Source of the DNA: Leptospirillum ferrooxidans C2-3
GTDB lineage: Bacteria; Nitrospirota; Leptospirillia; Leptospirillales; Leptospirillaceae
Reading direction: 5' to 3'
Assembly: GCF_000284315.1 (NCBI RefSeq)
Contig: NC_017094.1
Coordinates: forward strand, 1,829,486 to 1,893,485
Length of the DNA: 64,000 bases
Notes under the pieces: model-generated
The model's input: the letters and a program-made list of their open reading frames with translations, nothing else
The model's database searches: none
What the model was told of the DNA's origin: nothing
Position numbers and translations under genes: made by a program
Shown here: positions 2,226-61,870 of the stretch, in pieces
How positions within the stretch are numbered: the first letter of the stretch is position 1
Layout: each line of letters opens with the position of its first letter

Positions 2226-3970
2226 TCTCCCTCCTTGATCTTTTTGGCCTCAGCTATGATTCGAACCGGATAGGACTCTGCTGGAGAAGCGGAGGGTGGC
2301 GGGGAAGGAATACCGAAGTGAACCAGAGCCATTTGAGCGACTTTCCTGAAAAGTGGAGCGGCCACTGTCCCTCCCCATGAAAGGGATTTTGGCTTGACAA
2401 TAATGGCAAGGATCACCAGGGAAGGATCCTGCACAGGAAGAACGCCGACAAAGGAGTCTATCGTTCTCCTTCGGGTATAAGCCCTCTTCAGGGGATCATA
2501 AACCTGGGCTGTTCCGGTTTTTCCAGCCACATCATAGCCGCTGATGGAGGCATTCGCTCCTGTTCCACCCGGTGATACCACATTTTCCATCAACCCGAGG
2601 AGGGTTCTTGATGTTTTTCTGGAAATAACGTCTCGAACCAAGTGTGGCTTTCCCTTCCAGATGGTTTCTCCATCTGGAGATGTGATCGAGCTCACAAGGA
2701 ATGGTTCCATAAGCTTCCCGCCATTTGCTATGGCGCTGACCGCTGTCACAAGCTGAATAGGTGTTACACCAATCTCTTGCCCCATGGATATGCTGTAAAT
2801 GGAGCGATGTGACCATCGGGAAAGGGGGTGAAGGATTCCGGAAGACTCTCCCGGGTAAGGGATCCCTGTCCTGGCTCCAAATCCAAACAGACGGATATAA
2901 TGGTAAAATCGGGGGGGACCAAGCCTAAGACCAACCTGGGAAATCCCGATGTTGCTGGATTTTGCCAGAATGCCCGCCAGGTTGAGGCTTTTCTGGGGCT
3001 CATCGTCGTGAAGGACGCCTCCGGGAATGTAAAAGACCCCATCATGTCCATCAAACTGCTCTCCCAGAGAGACGGCCTTCTCGTTTAAAGCGGCTGAAGC
3101 GGTCACAAGCTTAAAAATGGACCCTGGTTCATAGACCATTGAAACGGCAGGATTGATCTGGCCTGCCATTCCCTTGTTATTGGAGGCCATTGCAAGGACA
3201 GCTCCCGTTTTAGGATTCATAACGAGAACAACTCCTCCTTCCGCCTGTACCTTGTCCACTTCTTCATCAAGTGACAACTGGGCATATTTTTGCAGTTCAC
3301 CATCTATTGTCAGCCGGATGACATTTCCGGACAGTTTTTCAGGGGGAACAAGATCCCTGAAAAAATAAGAACGTCCACGCGCCGAAACCTCAATGATGCG
3401 TCCTCCCGTATGGCCCGAAAGCTCCCTGTCAAACTTCCTTTCAATTCCTGAAAGTCCGGAATTATCCGTTCCGGTCGTCCCGATCAGGGTATGGAACGCT
3501 TCCCCTCCCGGGTAAAAACGCCTCTCTTCGTTCATGATATAAAGCCCAGGAATATGCAGATCCCTTATCTCCGAGGCTGTCTGGGGAAAGAGGTCATGGC
3601 GTATCCACACAAAACGGCTTTTTTTATTCAACATTGAGACGAGGCGGGAGACTGGAATACCGAGAGGTGAAGAAATCTTCTGGGCAACTTTCAGAACCGA
3701 AGAATGTTTTTTAATGACAGTTGGGTCACAAACAAGGCCAGGCAAGGACCGGTTGGAGGCCAGTACATCACCGTTTCGATCCAGAACGACACCTCGTTCT
3801 CCATGGACAAGGAGAATACGCTGATGTTCCTTCAGGGAAAGCTGGGCATAGTTCCCGCGGCCGACCGCCTGGACAAACACCAAACGAAGAGCGACTCCCA
3901 GAAAACCGAACAGGACAAATACCATTATGACCCTTGTCCTGCTCTTCATCCAGCCCCCTTTGGAACCCAT
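2222..3970 (-). CDS. ftsI: Penicillin-binding protein 3 / FtsI-type transpeptidase
   Basis: Septal peptidoglycan DD-transpeptidase, anchored in the inner membrane with its catalytic domain in the periplasm. At 582 residues it has one N-terminal membrane segment (about residues 14-34), a PBP dimer domain, and the transpeptidase motifs SIFK (in EPGSIFKL), SSN (in KSSNIGI) and KTGTAQ near residue 485. Its place between the ftsL-like gene and murE supports the division-specific assignment. ATG 3970 follows GACAGG; an internal ATG at 3949 preceded by a GGGGG run is an alternative start. Confidence 0.96.
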   Translation of the reverse strand: MGSKGGWMKSRTRVIMVFVLFGFLGVALRLVFVQAVGRGNYAQLSLKEHQRILLVHGERGVVLDRNGDVLASNRSLPGLVCDPTVIKKHSSVLKVAQKISSPLGIPVSRLVSMLNKKSRFVWIRHDLFPQTASEIRDLHIPGLYIMNEERRFYPGGEAFHTLIGTTGTDNSGLSGIERKFDRELSGHTGGRIIEVSARGRSYFFRDLVPPEKLSGNVIRLTIDGELQKYAQLSLDEEVDKVQAEGGVVLVMNPKTGAVLAMASNNKGMAGQINPAVSMVYEPGSIFKLVTASAALNEKAVSLGEQFDGHDGVFYIPGGVLHDDEPQKSLNLAGILAKSSNIGISQVGLRLGPPRFYHYIRLFGFGARTGIPYPGESSGILHPLSRWSHRSIYSISMGQEIGVTPIQLVTAVSAIANGGKLMEPFLVSSITSPDGETIWKGKPHLVRDVISRKTSRTLLGLMENVVSPGGTGANASISGYDVAGKTGTAQVYDPLKRAYTRRRTIDSFVGVLPVQDPSLVILAIIVKPKSLSWGGTVAAPLFRKVAQMALVHFGIPSPPPSASPAESYPVRIIAEAKKIKEGD

Positions 3971-53322: not shown

Positions 53323-55866
53323 TTATGACACTCGTTTCCATTGCTTGTCCGTTGTTCTCTGGTAGATTCCTCCTTGTTCATTGTCGATTTCGAAAACGAA
53401 CAGCCATCGATTCTCGATCAATTCGCGTACGAGTTCATGTTTGGCGATAATGTTATCGATTGCCGACTTCGGTGCCTCGAGAAAGACGTTCAGTCGAAGG
53501 GGTTCGTGCACCCAACGCTCTCCGTCATGAAGCGACTGCATCGGAAGACCGACGCGCAAGTCCCCGCCATTTCCCTCCAGCACACCGATCGCCCCCCCGA
53601 CAATATTGTGCAGCACCTTGTTTCCACTACCGTATCTTCTGTTATCCACAACCGAAGCGTAATACTGCATGTTGATCCAGTTGGCGACCACCATTGGCGC
53701 GGTCATGATGAGCTCCAGAACTCCAAAACCCTCATCTTTCCGCCAGTCGTAATCATGCAGGAATGATCTTCCCGAAAGATTGATCCCCACTGTTCTCGTT
53801 CGTGGAGCAGCGATAAAGGCAGCATTTCCGGCAAGCCCCCATTCCGGACGAACCTGCGACCAGTCCCGGCTGCGTTCATGGACCAGTGCATCGACTATCT
53901 CGGGAGCAGCATCATTGATCCCCAAAAGCGTTGAACGCTCCATTCTGGTCAATTGCCCTGCTTCCGCCAACCACTGCTTCAGCTGTTTCAGATCATCCGC
54001 GTGGGTCGACTCCAGTCCCTCGATATCAAACAGATCGATTGTGTCAACTGTCGTGTCGTGCAACGCACCCACAAAGCGAGTGTCGGAGGGAATCTTGATC
54101 CCTTTTTGAGAAAGCTCTTCACGAACTTTCGATTCATTCAGTAACGCAGCGATGACCCTGGCGCTCACCTCACCTGTTTGCCCTGCACAGGCACCACAAT
54201 CCAGGCCTGTTGCATAAGGATTATTGAACGTGCTGCTTCCATGGCCGACCAGAAGCACCAGTCTGGCGAAATTACTGGTCATAGACATCGCCCGCAGAAT
54301 GATTTCTGCCAATCCCCCCCGATCTGTCATCGGGATGCCGACCGTGGGTGATTCCGCTGCCTTCTGCCTGGTTTTCGTAATATCCTGTCCGTGGGAAACC
54401 GACTCCAACGTTGGAACAAGACGCCCCTTGACCGAGGAGTGAACTCCTTTGGTTGATGGATGGGGTACTGGCCTGCTCCATCCGAAGCTATCCCCCAGCA
54501 GTTTTGCCCCATAAAGCAATCCGGTCGATTCCACAAAAGAAAAACAGGAGGATGGGGAACTCTTGAAACTCTTCCAGGTATTCGCTCCATGCAAATTTTC
54601 CCGACGTTGGCGGATCGCCTTTTTGACATCATGGTCGCTGCCCCCGCGAATTCGCTCGTGGCCCTGCCAACCTGGCGTCAAAAGGACCGGAAGATGGATC
54701 CTCGGTTCTGATGCCCCCAATGGAACAAACTCCATGAATGCCCCGAAAAATCCGGCGAACCCAATCGTTTGAGCCGTCGGAGCAACTGTTTCCAGTGCTC
54801 TACGGTAAATCTCCGAACGCACATCGATACAGAATGCGGCCTGTACGGACGGCCGGACAGATGAAGAACTCTTTGTCCCTGACTGTCGACTCGGATGGGA
54901 AAGCTCCGCAATCACACTTTTCTGATAGCTCAGCTCAAAGGCTGTTTGCAGGGCAAAATCCAATTGCGTAGGGGGCATGATCCCTTTCTCTGAAGAATTT
55001 CTGATGGCTCCCGCCACTTTTTTCCAAATTTTTGCCCATTCAGTCACATTCCGGGCGTTGAACAGAATCAACTCCCATGCAAGCCTGATGGCAAGAAGAT
55101 CTATGATGGAGCTCTCCCCTCCGCCAACCAGTTCTTTTTCCCACTGGAGGTAGCGTGTCCAGGAAGCCCAACCTCCCACCGACATCAAATTGGCAAGGAG
55201 ATAGTATTCGATCATATCCGCAGGAATGGCGAGCTTCTTGACGACAAGAGCAATCGTCTCCTCCGCATTTATCGGAAGCCTGGAAACAAAGCTCCCGACA
55301 TCGCGAAGTCCCATCATCCTGGGAGCCAGATCGATTTTGGCATACTGATACCATGCCCCGAAAAGCCCTTCCTTCCCGGATGGCTCTTTCCAGATGGCTT
55401 GCCCCTGGTCAAAGTAGGCCGCACAAAATTGGCTGATCTGTTCCACAATAAAGACGCTCCATTCGGTCTTCTCACTCTGTCCCAAAACATCCGAAACCAG
55501 CGGAATCGGCTCAGGAAGAATGGGTCTGTCTCCGGACAGGCTTTTCTGCACTTCGGAAAACGTCATATCCAAACCATGTTCTTTAAGAGACTTCTCCAGA
55601 TCGGCCTTGGCGATCCGCCCTGAAGAGATTTGCTCAGCATAGTAACGGCGGGACATGAGAAGGGAGGATCCGGCAACCCTGCCCAGCGTTTCATTGGCCT
55701 TCTCAAAATCCTGATCCCTCAGGCCAAAATAAGGGCTTACGGCCACAAAAGCATCGAGCGGCCAGAGCGGAGCGATCCGATGGCAAACCGAATCGATGAT
55801 GGGTTTCAGTGAAACAGATAGATGATTCGCTTTTTCTTCCCGGTCTTGGGTTATTGAGAGACTCAT
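53323..55866 (-). CDS. dabA: Inorganic carbon transporter subunit DabA (DUF2309)
   Basis: DabA is the cytoplasmic, carbonic-anhydrase-like half of the DAB complex, which couples CO2 hydration to cation flow so that bicarbonate accumulates. The 847-residue protein keeps the proposed zinc set: Cys and Asp in FCIDVRSE, His in LVGHGSSTFNN, and Cys in GLDCGACAGQTG. It starts 2 nt after the dabB stop. Partner of DabB and, by homology to the Staphylococcus MpsABC system, likely of the MpsC proteins nearby. Confidence 0.95.
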   Translation of the reverse strand: MSLSITQDREEKANHLSVSLKPIIDSVCHRIAPLWPLDAFVAVSPYFGLRDQDFEKANETLGRVAGSSLLMSRRYYAEQISSGRIAKADLEKSLKEHGLDMTFSEVQKSLSGDRPILPEPIPLVSDVLGQSEKTEWSVFIVEQISQFCAAYFDQGQAIWKEPSGKEGLFGAWYQYAKIDLAPRMMGLRDVGSFVSRLPINAEETIALVVKKLAIPADMIEYYLLANLMSVGGWASWTRYLQWEKELVGGGESSIIDLLAIRLAWELILFNARNVTEWAKIWKKVAGAIRNSSEKGIMPPTQLDFALQTAFELSYQKSVIAELSHPSRQSGTKSSSSVRPSVQAAFCIDVRSEIYRRALETVAPTAQTIGFAGFFGAFMEFVPLGASEPRIHLPVLLTPGWQGHERIRGGSDHDVKKAIRQRRENLHGANTWKSFKSSPSSCFSFVESTGLLYGAKLLGDSFGWSRPVPHPSTKGVHSSVKGRLVPTLESVSHGQDITKTRQKAAESPTVGIPMTDRGGLAEIILRAMSMTSNFARLVLLVGHGSSTFNNPYATGLDCGACAGQTGEVSARVIAALLNESKVREELSQKGIKIPSDTRFVGALHDTTVDTIDLFDIEGLESTHADDLKQLKQWLAEAGQLTRMERSTLLGINDAAPEIVDALVHERSRDWSQVRPEWGLAGNAAFIAAPRTRTVGINLSGRSFLHDYDWRKDEGFGVLELIMTAPMVVANWINMQYYASVVDNRRYGSGNKVLHNIVGGAIGVLEGNGGDLRVGLPMQSLHDGERWVHEPLRLNVFLEAPKSAIDNIIAKHELVRELIENRWLFVFEIDNEQGGIYQRTTDKQWKRVS

Positions 55867-55868
55867 GG

Positions 55869-57503
55869 TCAGACTCCTTTGGCTTGGGTCAATGAAGTGG
55901 AGCGTATTCCCCAGATACGGCTTACCAGTCTTGAAAAGGGGATATCGACATACAATCCGTTATAAAGATAGACATAAACTCTGCGAGAGAATGGATTGCC
56001 CAAAAATTTCGGCAAGCTCTGCTGAATCACCAGGATGGAAAGGAACACCACCATCACCAGGGCAATGAGGGCAAACTGCGCGGGACCGTTGATCAAGCGC
56101 ACTGCCGGCAAACTCGATGCCAACATGTAATGAAATGCGGCATGCAGACTGAAATAAGAGGTACAAACCAGCGCCCCCATAAAGGCTGCACGTGCGATAA
56201 AGGCTGCACCCATTCCCGCCTTGAAAGACTGGAGGATCAACTGGGTCATGGCGACTCCAAGGATTGATCCCAATGCAAGAAGTGCAGGCTGGTGCTCTGT
56301 CGTCACACCAAATAAAGACCCGATACCAATGGTGACCAGAACCGAGAAGGCTGCCACGACAATCCACTGGCCCACTGTCGGAGTGTCCTGGGCAGGACGG
56401 ACTGCCGGCGCACGAAAGAGATCGACGCCACTGCCGGATGAAAGAAAGGCATGCGCCTTGTATAACGAATGTCCGACCAGATGCAGCATGGCCAGGCTGT
56501 AAAGACCAAGACCGCATTCCAGCAACATGAAACCCATCTGGGCGGTTGTCGTCCAGGCCAGATAGACCTTGAGACTGGTTTGGGTCATCATGACCAGTCC
56601 GGCAGCGGCAATCGTTAAGAGTCCAATAATCGCCAATACATCAGAGGCGATTATCGACTGGGACATAATCGGACTCATGCGCACCACCAGAAAAGCACCG
56701 GCATTGACAATTCCCGCATGCAACAAAGCCGACACCGGAGTTGGAGCTTCCATGACCTGAATCAGCCAACCTTGCAATGGGAACTGGGCCGTTTTGAGCG
56801 CCGCTGTCAACACTATGAATCCGCTTGCCCATTGAAGGGCGACCGGCATCGGCCCGACTCCTGCCGACATGAGATGAAAAACGGTCTCAAACTGCATGCT
56901 GTGGAGAGTCGATCCGATCAATAAAACAGCTATGAAAAGACTTGTTTCGGCAACACGGCTGACAATCCATTTTTTTCGGGCCGCAAGGACTGCTCCCGAA
57001 CGTTCCGGATAAAACACCAGAAGGTGATGCAGGCAAAGGCTGGTGGAAATCCATGCAAATGTGAACATCAGCATGTTCCCGGAGACAATCATCGTCAGGA
57101 TGGATGCGAGCGTCAGATTGAGCCAAGTGTAGAATCGCCCCTGATTTTGCTCCCCCTGAAGGTAGTTGCTCGAAAAGCGGGCAACGACAAACCCTACGAA
57201 TGAAACCAGGGAAAGCATCATCACCGTGACAGGATTGATCAGGATACTCAGTGCAAAATGTCCTGAGTTTCTAGGCAATGGATAAGAAAAAGCGGTGATC
57301 GTCTGGACTTTTCCGCCAATGGCATACAACAAAGAGGCGAGAACCGCGCAGATAAACACAAGACCCGAGCTTGCAGTGCTTAACCCCGCAATCACCCGGG
57401 CCTGTCTCGGGGAAAGAAGACTCCCGAAAAGCCCCATCGCCAAAACGAGCAACGGAACACAAATGATGAGAATAGAAAGAACAAGATTCAGATTGGTTGC
57501 CAT
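55869..57503 (-). CDS. dabB: Inorganic carbon transporter subunit DabB (NuoL-like)
   Basis: About 544 residues, almost wholly membrane helices, of the proton-conducting antiporter family shared with NuoL/MrpA (ALKTAQFPLQGWLIQVMEAPTPVSALLHAG is the family core). It provides the cation channel that drives DabA. ATG 57503 with GAGGAG upstream begins just before the first helix; the frame start at 57539 is less likely. Translationally close to dabA. Confidence 0.95.
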   Translation of the reverse strand: MATNLNLVLSILIICVPLLVLAMGLFGSLLSPRQARVIAGLSTASSGLVFICAVLASLLYAIGGKVQTITAFSYPLPRNSGHFALSILINPVTVMMLSLVSFVGFVVARFSSNYLQGEQNQGRFYTWLNLTLASILTMIVSGNMLMFTFAWISTSLCLHHLLVFYPERSGAVLAARKKWIVSRVAETSLFIAVLLIGSTLHSMQFETVFHLMSAGVGPMPVALQWASGFIVLTAALKTAQFPLQGWLIQVMEAPTPVSALLHAGIVNAGAFLVVRMSPIMSQSIIASDVLAIIGLLTIAAAGLVMMTQTSLKVYLAWTTTAQMGFMLLECGLGLYSLAMLHLVGHSLYKAHAFLSSGSGVDLFRAPAVRPAQDTPTVGQWIVVAAFSVLVTIGIGSLFGVTTEHQPALLALGSILGVAMTQLILQSFKAGMGAAFIARAAFMGALVCTSYFSLHAAFHYMLASSLPAVRLINGPAQFALIALVMVVFLSILVIQQSLPKFLGNPFSRRVYVYLYNGLYVDIPFSRLVSRIWGIRSTSLTQAKGV

Positions 57504-58105
57504 GACACACTCCTCTTCATGTGATTGAGTCGAAAACATTTAAGATCCGGCCGACAAGATTTCCTGAGATGATCTTGATCCTTGCCTCTTCCGGCATTTG
57601 CCGAACACAGCATCAAATCCTTGGCCCACCTGATCCCTCTGATCGTCACCCAACCAGGAAAATCATTTGTTCCACGGGTTACCTTCTGGCCCACAATTCA
57701 GGGCACCTCCTTGGAGAATTTCCATTGGCGCCGTCGAACTGTCTGCCGATTCAGACAAAAAAAGCCGGCTCAATGATGAATTGAGCCGGCTTACACCCCG
57801 ACCGATCCTGCATGACAGGACTTTCGGGGTATCTTCCGTCGAATAGAAATTGACATTACCATCTGGAACAAAACCCAACCCGCGGCAGACTGGAAGAAAA
57901 ATGCTGATATCCAGACACTACTTCAGGGCTGGTGATGCGCTTTTACCTCGCCTAACAAACTAGAACAACAAGCCGCAGGAAAAGACCCCCAGGACAGCTC
58001 CTGAGCTGAAGAAAACGCTTATGATATACCCGGATGATGACCGAGAATCACCTACCCCCAACACCAACAAATGGAAACTCATGCAGGGCGATCTTTAAGT
58101 GCCCC
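57504..58105. other. Long gap between mpsC1 and dabB
   Basis: About 600 bp with no convincing gene. It holds the structured leader at 57757-57837. About 250 nt lie between its terminator and dabB with no further clear stem. A small palindromic stem (CAGCTC/GAGCTG, about 58000) lies past mpsC1 and may help end its transcript. Confidence 0.5.
57757..57837 (-). ncRNA. Structured leader element, copy 1 (upstream of dabBA)
   Basis: Transcribed on the minus strand from GGAAGATA (57837-57830). A stem ACCCCGA/UCGGGGU encloses a purine internal loop and a second stem UCCUG/CAGGA. Then comes a perfect 13-bp terminator hairpin AAGCCGGCTCAAT (57762-57774 and 57780-57792) with U7. It is closely similar to the element at 59247-59327 in sequence and shape, with compensatory pair changes. 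It matches no riboswitch class I can identify by eye. Confidence 0.7.
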
Positions 58106-58504
58106 TTATTTTTTCAGTGTTTCCGTCTTCTTCGGTGACTTGGCGAATTGCTCCTCGAGATTTTTGTTCAAGGAAAAAATAATCATGCGCTCACCCGTTT
58201 TGGTGCTAATATCGGTGTGCAGGGTCATGACTTTAAGACCCGTAATTTTTTCCACCGCATCAGCAAGCATCTCTCTGCCCTGTTCCAGAAGATTGGATCG
58301 CACCTTTTTGATGAGGTTCATTCCTTCTGGGTTTTTCGCCAGTTGTTGCTCTGCCGGAGTCAGCACACCTTTTAACCGGACCAGAACCATATCCTCAATA
58401 ATGAAAGACTTTGTCTCCTCCGGCCCCCGTCCCTTATAATCCTTTTCAAACTGGATCAAAGCATTGCTGATCTCGGCTTCGACCTGGCCTTTTGTTTTCT
58501 TCAT
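58106..58504 (-). CDS. DUF2294 / MpsC-family protein, copy 1
   Basis: A 132-residue soluble protein starting MKKTKGQVEAEISNALIQFEKDY, the DUF2294 (MpsC) pattern. In Staphylococcus, MpsC belongs to the MpsABC system whose A and B parts are DabB and DabA homologues. ATG 58504 follows AAAAGGAG. It is about 75 percent identical by eye to copy 2, 210 nt upstream, which indicates tandem duplication. Likely a partner or regulator of DabAB. Confidence 0.88.
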   Translation of the reverse strand: MKKTKGQVEAEISNALIQFEKDYKGRGPEETKSFIIEDMVLVRLKGVLTPAEQQLAKNPEGMNLIKKVRSNLLEQGREMLADAVEKITGLKVMTLHTDISTKTGERMIIFSLNKNLEEQFAKSPKKTETLKK

Positions 58505-58714
58505 TGAACTCCTTTTGTCACAGCCGACCAGTGCCAAACTGTCGATTCTATATTCCGGGCAAAAAAGTCGAAGCCATTGCGGGCTCATCAAATTCCAGCT
58601 CTAGAATACAGCAAACCGGGGGCCAGAGAAAACGGTGGCTCAATCAAATACACTCCGTACCTGAATCCACTTGCTTCAAAAACCCGTACGATCTTTTAAA
58701 TCAAGGGATACCCC

Positions 58715-59107
58715 TTATTGCTGAATCATTTTTGGATCTTTCGCACGGAAGGAGATTTCCAGATTTTTGTTTAAAGTAAAAACAATCATTCTCTCACCAG
58801 TCTTGGTGCTGATATCGGTATGAAGCGTGATAACTTTGAACCCTGTAATTTTTTCGATCACATTTGTCAGAAGATCCCGACCCTGCTCCAGAAGATTTGA
58901 ACGAACCATCTTTATAAGATTCATTCCCTCAGGGTTTTTGGCCAGCTGCTGCTCTGCAGGAGTTAAAACTCCTTTCAGGCGAATCAGGATCATGTCTTCA
59001 ATGATGAAAGTCTTCGTCTCTTGGGGCCCCCTACCCATATAATCCTTTTCGAACTGGATCAAGGCATTGCCAATTTCGGCTTCCAACTGGCCTTTTGTCT
59101 TTTTCAT
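58715..59107 (-). CDS. DUF2294 / MpsC-family protein, copy 2
   Basis: A 130-residue paralogue of copy 1. Conserved blocks are FIIEDMILIRLKGVLTPAEQ, NPEGMNLIK and LHTDISTKTGERMIVF; the two differ most at the C-terminal end. ATG 59107 with GGGAG upstream is used. The structured leader at 59247-59327 precedes it by about 140 nt, whereas copy 1 has none, so copy 2 may be the regulated gene of the pair. Confidence 0.88.
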   Translation of the reverse strand: MKKTKGQLEAEIGNALIQFEKDYMGRGPQETKTFIIEDMILIRLKGVLTPAEQQLAKNPEGMNLIKMVRSNLLEQGRDLLTNVIEKITGFKVITLHTDISTKTGERMIVFTLNKNLEISFRAKDPKMIQQ

Positions 59108-59246
59108 TGGACTCCCTAATTCTGACCGGCGTCTGAGCAATACCCCATAAAACCTTCCCCAAGAGCTTGGCAAAGCCTTTGCCATCCTTCCACACCGTCT
59201 TTCTGTTTCTCTTTCTGAACGGTGAAGCTATCGGCATATGACAAAT

Positions 59247-59327
59247 AAAAAAAGCCGACCCAATTATGAACATTGAGTCGGCTTATAGCTGGACCAATCC
59301 CCTCAGGGATTCTTCCGGCTATCTTCC
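59247..59327 (-). ncRNA. Structured leader element, copy 2 (upstream of mpsC2)
   Basis: Minus strand from GGAAGATA (59327-59320). Stem AUAGC/GCUAU, a purine internal loop (AG opposite GG), second stem AAUCCC/GGGAUU, then a 13-bp terminator hairpin (59252-59264 and 59272-59284) with U7. Compared with copy 1 the terminator has a paired G-C to A-U change, and both stems differ in sequence while keeping pairing. That supports a conserved RNA structure. Confidence 0.7.
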
Positions 59328-59433
59328 ATTTGTGCTGTTGGTATTTTATGCACCAAACAGTGGCTCCAAGTCAAGTGCCCTTTTCCGTCAAACCGGTGGG
59401 AACGGGGGACGCAAACACACGAGTCTCGGATGA

Positions 59434-61291: not shown

Positions 61292-61870
61292 ATGAGCAAG
61301 GTTCTCAAGGATGTCATTGACGCAAACAAGGCCTATGTTCAAAACTTTGGAACAAAAAAAGACCTGCAGTTGCCTCCGGCGAGGCAGTTTGCCATTCTGA
61401 CCTGCATGGATGCCCGTATTGATCCTGCAAAAATGGCCGGACTCTCCGAAGGAGACGCCCATGTCATCAGGAATGCCGGAGGTCGGGCCTCCGATGATGC
61501 CATCCGCAGCCTGGTCATTTCCTACAAGCTTCTCGGGACAAAAGAATGGTTTGTGATCCATCATACAGATTGCGGAATGCAGCTTTTCACCGATGACATC
61601 ATGAGGGGACTTCTCAAAAAGAGTCTGGAAACATCCAGCATTGGCTCTTCCGGATGGGTTGATCATGGCCATGGTCCTGGGTCTCTTGAAGGGCAATATG
61701 TCAATTTTCTCCCGTTCAAGGATCTTGAAGAAAGCGTTGTCGAAGATGTTCAACGCATTCGTGGCCATCATCTGGTCCCCAAGAGGATCCCCATTTACGG
61801 ATTTGTATACGACGTCAAAACAGGCAAGCTCAATCAAGTCTCAAAAGCCATGGAAGCAGGAAAAGTCTGA
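61292..61870 (+). CDS. Beta-class carbonic anhydrase
   Basis: A 192-residue enzyme that interconverts CO2 and bicarbonate. Zinc ligands and the catalytic dyad show in LTCMDARID (Cys, Asp-Arg) and HHTDCGM (His, Cys). AGGAGG precedes the ATG. It is divergent from the HD-GYP gene and lies 4 kb from dabAB, so a role in carbon acquisition is plausible. The rTCA enzymes in the window give it a clear metabolic setting. Confidence 0.94.

Follow-up and report, generated by a model that had tools for sequence, protein, structure and literature searches.

A conserved leader hairpin in Nitrospirota: a predicted ON-type transcription attenuator that is likely to represent a new riboswitch class

The window analysed here is a 64,000-nucleotide stretch of the Leptospirillum ferrooxidans C2-3 genome (contig NC_017094.1, positions 1,829,486 to 1,893,485), whose minus strand carries two copies of a structured RNA element, one ahead of mpsC and one ahead of the dab genes. 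The element is a conserved leader hairpin of Nitrospirota, present in 22 copies in 19 genomes from 12 families, which is predicted to work as an ON-type transcription attenuator and, judging from its conservation and computed folds, is probably a riboswitch of a new class. That it represents an uncatalogued class of cis-regulatory RNA is nearly certain; attenuation through mutual exclusion of its basal stem and the terminator is likely, and as to the effector, a small molecule is more probable than a protein. The element bears on how chemolithoautotrophs perceive a lack of CO2 and turn on their DAB-type pumps, to our knowledge an open question. With a compact RNA that carries its own readout and is linked to DAB, SbtA and reductive tricarboxylic acid (TCA) cycle genes, this question becomes testable in vitro, and the engineering of CO2 fixation would gain a sensor of carbon status.

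Structure of the element

The initial annotation of this DNA placed the two elements on the minus strand at 57837-57757 and 59327-59247 and listed GGAAGATA, a stem-internal loop-stem unit, a 13-bp terminator and a T7 run as their features. Both elements are there with all of these features, and none of 200 dinucleotide shuffles was equally stable in either case (z -8.1 for 57837-57757 and z -6.4 for 59327-59247). The two copies align as GG-AAG-(nine-position P2)-AR-(P3)-GG-(P2')-AAG-CC, and their common fold is a hairpin of about 55 nt that consists of a basal stem P1 (GG/CC), a symmetric AAG/AAG loop, a nine-position stem P2, an AR/GG loop and an inner stem P3. What had been described as two different outer stems is in fact one aligned nine-position stem, AUACCCCGA/UCGGGGUGU in one copy and AUAGCCGGA/UCCAGCUAU in the other, with one C.A mismatch. 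P1, which had not been noticed earlier, is formed by the GG of GGAAG paired with the CC of AAGCC across the AAG/AAG loop. The 3' strand of P1 doubles as the terminator's 5' arm, so that only one of the two structures can form at a time.

The core of element 1, delimited by covariance-model match, alignment and folds, occupies positions 59277-59332 of the minus strand, with P1 at 59328-59326 (UGG) and 59281-59279 (CCG), the AAG/AAG loop at 59325-59323 and 59284-59282, P2 at 59322-59314 and 59293-59285, and, beyond the AG/GG loop, P3 at 59311-59306 and 59301-59296. Its terminator, which according to the folds is a 13-bp hairpin with a T run, lies at 59247-59284, where its 5' arm takes in the AAG loop and P1's 3' strand. 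Upstream is a promoter-like site at 59345-59374 on the same strand (TTGACT at 59374-59369, an 18-nt spacer and CATAAA at 59350-59345) with a consensus score of 9/12. Element 2, delimited in the same way, has its core at 57785-57842 (minus strand), where P1 (CGG 57838-57836 and CCG 57789-57787) is again followed by the AAG/AAG loop, P2 lies at 57832-57824 and 57801-57793 and the inner stem at 57821-57816 and 57810-57806. The folds place its terminator, a 13-bp hairpin with T7, at 57757-57792, with the same overlap of the 5' arm as in element 1.

Distribution in Nitrospirota

A covariance model built from both copies and searched in relatives, the check proposed with the initial annotation, led to 20 further copies across Nitrospirota. 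Three models were used, R1 (the two window copies), R2 (five sequences) and R3 (16 sequences, two of the training rows coming from metagenome-assembled genomes (MAGs) labelled Kuenenia), and these contributed three, nine and eight further copies, respectively; the models were calibrated only briefly and all E-values given here are rough. Among 100 genomes, R1 found both orthologs in the same-genus genome G001 (E 2.8e-9 and 5.6e-8) and, in a genome from another family of the phylum (G051), one copy at E 1.2e-4. R2 added nine copies at E ≤ 1e-4 among 395 Nitrospirota genomes, and in this same sample R3 matched 14 genomes at E ≤ 0.01, all of them accepted, with new copies in G271 (E 9.2e-4) and G044 (E 0.005). 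A sample of 246 genomes from the class of G182 gave 15 genomes, again all accepted, five of which were new. Copies were accepted on the score and on the promoter and terminator, not on gene context, with the exception of the second copy of G156 (E 0.0014), which came from a scan of 21 loci around mpsC genes, so that its gene context is not independent. The sample of the phylum is incomplete, and searches over more than 40 genomes score only the best candidates in each, which means that copies were missed. As models derived from the window pair find conserved, covarying copies elsewhere, the two window copies are no chance pair.

Weaker matches were set aside. Those of R1 in G011, G018, G052 and on contig C249 of G051 (E 0.11-0.76) were dropped on score and did not recur with R2 or R3, and those of R2 in G354, G112, G261 and G293 (E 0.006-0.048) were dropped with no promoter and terminator frame seen; all eight were rejected without annotation of the downstream genes. 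A weak match at L220 in G536 (E 0.009) also stays outside the 22. Eighteen Nitrospinota genomes, a set that contained no positive control, gave no match.

Covariation

That selection acts on the RNA fold, as the initial annotation had claimed, is borne out by covariation. In a MAFFT alignment of five copies, which was not fitted to any model, 95.4% of the cells are paired and eight cells are changed on both sides, values that none of 500 shuffles reached. There are 22 cells changed on both sides in an alignment of 14 copies, and with all 22 copies 91.8% of the cells are paired and 31 cells, belonging to 11 pairs, are changed on both sides, again more than in any of 500 shuffles, although the larger alignments are model-fitted and the sequences related, so that these numbers lean upward. 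Slid controls on the 22 copies gave 22.6-43.2% paired cells and at most eight cells changed on both sides. That the elements are duplicated terminators or repeats without regulation is hardly credible: the terminators are strong and a related hairpin is found in multiple copies in one MAG, but the covariation and the invariant nucleotides lie outside the terminator, and the motif pattern and the covariance models find just these two copies in the whole 2,559,538-bp genome. The 11-mer GGAAGATANCC, with one mismatch allowed, occurs eight times in the window against 5.1 expected, which is not above chance.

Transcription frame and switch

In most copies the element is tightly bracketed. TTGAC is found at most 60 nt upstream of 19 of the 22 copies; in the promoter pair with the highest score, the spacer measures 18 nt in 18 copies and TTTAAT occurs in eight, and a promoter score of at least 10/12 is reached by 13 copies compared to 0.9% of mononucleotide shuffles. 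A run of at least five T follows the element in 21 copies. The distance from the T run to the start codon was determined for 14 leaders (the value for element 1 of G001 is void, the base used not being a start codon), and it amounts to 27-29 nt in G162, G231 and ahead of sbtA in G156 and to 66-253 nt in ten others. A gap of 27-29 nt hardly leaves room for a second promoter, and read-through should therefore set the expression of the gene. A promoter-like site and a terminator around the hairpin would also suit a stand-alone small RNA of 80-90 nt that acts elsewhere and stays beside carbon genes through co-inheritance. We consider this very unlikely, given that every one of the 22 copies is on the coding strand in front of carbon genes, which belong to several unrelated families, and that three of the 14 leaders measured have the short gap.

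The proposed switch was examined by computing folds for 15 of the 22 copies, both for a transcript cut after the 3' strand of P1 and for the full length with the terminator. In the transcript cut before the terminator the GG/CC of P1 forms in all 15 cases, and at full length the P1 strand goes into the terminator in 14 of them. The architecture of read-through control put forward in the initial annotation is thus borne out, at the level of computed folds, by the exclusion of P1 and terminator. In G051 the sequence AAGCCG is conserved even though there is no T run within 70 nt. As the invariant GG is idle in the terminator and AAGCCG is kept in G051 without a T run, the form bound by the effector would be the one in which P1 is closed, and the element would be an ON switch. 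Two properties by which riboswitches are recognised are present: a conserved, covarying, aptamer-like structure in 5' leaders (22 copies) and an expression platform that excludes the conserved fold, the latter as judged by the computed folds (14 of 15). We propose that transcription starts just upstream of the hairpin and that the invariant GG/CC together with the AAG/AAG and AR/GG loops may form an effector site. Binding of the effector would stabilise P1, so that a signal of carbon limitation would keep P1 closed and the terminator from forming, and transcription would continue into the genes.

Stabilisation of P1 might also be achieved by a protein. BglG/SacY-type antiterminator sites are hairpins with internal loops that overlap a terminator, and their stabilisation gives read-through; they resemble the element in this respect but are about 30 nt long and protein-bound. 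According to this alternative, an RNA-binding antiterminator, perhaps MpsC itself, would stabilise P1 in the manner of BglG/SacY. An mpsC gene adjoins many copies, element 1 itself precedes mpsC, and of the 17 best-scoring MpsC rows 15 come from element-bearing genomes, the other sampled MpsC scoring lower and belonging to genomes without a detected element. Structure and fold searches that asked whether MpsC is an RNA-binding protein gave no clear match, which is not to be taken as a sign of a new fold. We regard a protein-responsive attenuator as somewhat unlikely.

Downstream genes and the possible signal

In all 22 cases the element is followed, on its own strand, by a gene tied to inorganic carbon uptake or to the reductive TCA cycle, where mpsC is included among the carbon genes on account of its neighbourhood. 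A DabB-type antiporter subunit (PF00361/PF00662) follows 15 copies (window, G001, G118, G162, G182, G184, G231, G271, G361, G369, G425, G428, G429, G431 and G432; the gene of G431 is cut by the contig end and was called on PF00662 alone). DabA (PF10070) comes behind it in 13 of the 15, though G182 and G432 have it split into at least two pieces; the exceptions are G184, where other open reading frames (ORFs) come next, and G431, where the contig ends. One copy in G156 is followed by dabA and then Mrp-like ORFs. SbtA is downstream of two copies, with a P-II protein gene behind it in G156 and isocitrate dehydrogenase further on in G158, and mpsC is downstream of two (window and G001). The remaining copies precede AclB of ATP-citrate lyase (G051, PF16114/PF24948) and monomeric isocitrate dehydrogenase, Icd (G044, PF03971), the latter followed by mpsC and ATP-citrate lyase genes. 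In this icd-mpsC-acl cluster of G044 a degenerate copy with a terminator, seen by eye and not among the 22, lies ahead of mpsC (L207, about 3370-3500, minus strand).

MpsC is present in 13 of the 14 element genomes of the R3 search in 395 genomes, G271 being without it. In the sampled part of the window's own family it occurs only in G000 and G001, and the element in those alone. G036 and G058 have a high-scoring MpsC and no detected element. The expectation that the element is conserved ahead of dab and mps homologues holds for a part of the phylum only.

The gene set combines carbon import with enzymes that split citrate or interconvert 2-oxoglutarate plus CO2 and isocitrate, and together with the ON sense it favours a signal whose level goes up as CO2 becomes scarce. 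The effector would then be a small molecule that accumulates under CO2 shortage, for example 2-oxoglutarate or another metabolite that serves as CO2 acceptor in the reductive TCA cycle. The cyanobacterial NdhR regulon, which responds to 2-oxoglutarate and 2-phosphoglycolate, offers a parallel to such a signal. Alternatively, the riboswitch may respond to inorganic carbon itself (HCO3- or CO2) or to a linked ion such as Na+ or H+, considering that the downstream dab and sbt genes move bicarbonate or CO2, that Sbt_1 is described in Pfam as Na+-dependent and that MpsC is described there as part of a Na+-translocating system. We find this rather unlikely: an ON switch by P1 stabilisation has the wrong sign for simple HCO3- feedback, AclB and Icd do not fit a Na+ or pH regulon, and the Na+ riboswitch family RF03071 was found in none of 26 genomes and in none of the Rfam scans of the 22 copies. 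That copies also stand before the genes of ATP-citrate lyase and isocitrate dehydrogenase speaks for carbon status as the signal rather than for sodium or the membrane potential. Tentatively, and with the balance of our judgement still short of favouring it, the element may be the first riboswitch class for carbon-fixation status, in which the hairpin would bind either a metabolite that accepts CO2, for instance 2-oxoglutarate, or inorganic carbon and would switch on carbon import (DAB, SbtA, MpsC) and the reductive TCA cycle (ATP-citrate lyase, isocitrate dehydrogenase) across Nitrospirota, with two aptamers in series gating successive terminators in some species.

Second hairpins in series

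In five leaders (G369, G118, G158, G051 and the second copy of G156; loci L043, L044, L048, L016 and L211) a second hairpin of the same plan is possible downstream of the element, between it and the gene. The plan comprises a 2-bp P1 (AC/GU or UC/GA), an AGG/AGG or AAG/AAG loop, a nine-position P2 with 8-9 of the positions paired, and an inner hairpin, after which a terminator hairpin follows; a T run is present in most leaders and absent in G118. Folded alone, the second hairpins of G118, G158 and the second copy of G156 have z values of -5.0, -4.7 and -4.5. They were looked for where a second terminator was visible, not by a systematic scan of the 22 leaders, and G044 resembles the two-hairpin leaders less clearly. 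R3 does not detect the second hairpins, so their kinship to the element rests on geometry, and an exact pattern for the second-hairpin terminator matches only G156 and G158 among 365 genomes. The second hairpins are possible switches in series, and two hairpins in series, most with a terminator of their own, would sharpen the response. A stretch in the window between element 1 and mpsC (59227-59180, minus strand) may be a remnant of such a hairpin, having a nine-position stem with eight positions paired, and could well be there by chance (z -0.17 against shuffles; chance of about 0.1 by a hand estimate).

Comparison with known RNAs

The earlier remark that no known riboswitch class could be recognised was upheld, as none of the 22 copies matches Rfam 15 beyond chance (4227 models, those for Na+ and Li+ included). 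The window was scanned at the gathering score, which gave no family match for the elements, and permissive thresholds were applied to all 22 copies. At E ≤ 5 both elements yielded only chance-level matches to small RNAs and snoRNAs (SNORD87, AbsR25, STnc450 and others). Ten loci, that of G051 among them, had no match for the element, and nine others gave a single tRNA elsewhere in the locus. In a further scan the G051 leader had three weak matches nearby, none of them on the core.

The Na+ (DUF1646) riboswitch RF03071 has a model length similar to that of the element (55 positions) and is likewise associated with genes tied to ion-coupled transport; it differs in that the gene set of the element includes AclB and Icd. 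The mechanism proposed here resembles that of the HMP-PP (thiS) riboswitch, in which, according to PMC6478431, ligand-bound P1 and the terminator are mutually exclusive, making it an ON switch, and about 30% of whose representatives lie downstream of another terminator-bearing riboswitch. The thiS riboswitch shares with our element the P1/terminator exclusion and the ON sense and differs in fold, genes and taxa, and most of its aptamer is inside the terminator, whereas here only the 3' side of P1 is. The icd and icd-II candidates (PMC8632094) are orphan cis-RNAs ahead of isocitrate dehydrogenase with TCA-cycle acids as proposed ligands; they form three-stem junctions, and icd-II, mostly from Polynucleobacter, has the ribosome-binding site in P1. 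The copy ahead of icd is likewise an orphan cis-RNA ahead of isocitrate dehydrogenase. The element is otherwise unlike them, being a single hairpin with a terminator, found in Nitrospirota, and the three-stem junction with a ribosome-binding site in P1 is not seen in it. No report of this RNA came up among the listings that the literature searches gave or in term searches of PMC11109978 and PMC8632094, and a search for a riboswitch for bicarbonate, CO2 or 2-oxoglutarate returned no paper from the library used.

Related hairpins in Kuenenia-labelled MAGs

A pattern scan across genomes gave at least 120 stretches, and R2 was run on the 80 loci returned. Among the matches listed were three known copies, two weak ones in Kuenenia-labelled MAGs (E 0.025 and 0.081) and three weaker ones (L063, L090 and L127; E 0.33-0.81). 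Searches of the two whole MAGs gave one and six matches. These hairpins have terminators, occur in several copies in one MAG and are conserved upstream too (L112, L057 and L172-L178); the microRNA matches that Rfam gives in L112 lie away from the hairpin. Just two of 41 genomes of the MAGs' family have element-like matches. At 8.2 and 7.4 Mb, and with family neighbours of 4.7-9.9 Mb, the two MAGs are larger than is usual for Kuenenia, which makes the species label look wrong. The MAG hairpins are excluded from the 22.

Evidence against an ON-type attenuator

Several observations weigh against the element being an ON-type attenuator of carbon genes. Element 2 and its ortholog in G001 lack a good promoter. 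In G158 and G271 the cut transcripts leave P2 unpaired in its lower part, and G044 retains P1 at full length. The two inner P1 pairs hardly vary and so give almost no covariation evidence on P1, support for which is the invariant GG, with no partner in the terminator, and the folds, rather than covariation. The second copy of G156 fits the model over P2-P3 only. As to the second hairpins, that of G369 departs from the plan when folded (z +0.34), and in G051 the stretch is paired differently in the minimum-energy fold. No element was detected in 117 of the 130 sampled Nitrospirota genomes with MpsC, and the MAG hairpins have mixed gene contexts, with a P-type ATPase gene and arsD near them as well as two mpsC and still other genes.

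The window locus

The order on the minus strand is element 1, mpsC, mpsC, element 2, dabB and dabA. The initial annotation had the copies ahead of mps and dab genes, and both do precede such genes; the mpsC that element 1 precedes is the first of two tandem copies. This first mpsC (PF10057) lies at 58715-59107, with an MKKTKGQ start at 59107, and the second (PF10057) at 58106-58504. Element 2 sits between the second mpsC and dabB, which encodes a DabB/NuoL-like proton-antiporter subunit (55869-57503, likely start 57503; PF00361/PF00662) and is followed by dabA (53323-55866, PF10070). A carbonic anhydrase gene (Pro_CA) is found near the module at 61292-61870 on the plus strand, and in G036 and G058 a carbonic-anhydrase-like ORF (judged by eye) stands directly before mpsC, where the element is not present. 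Just upstream of element 1, and likewise in G001, a short ORF ends (from about 59435 upwards in the window, minus strand), which bears a CDGSH-like motif.
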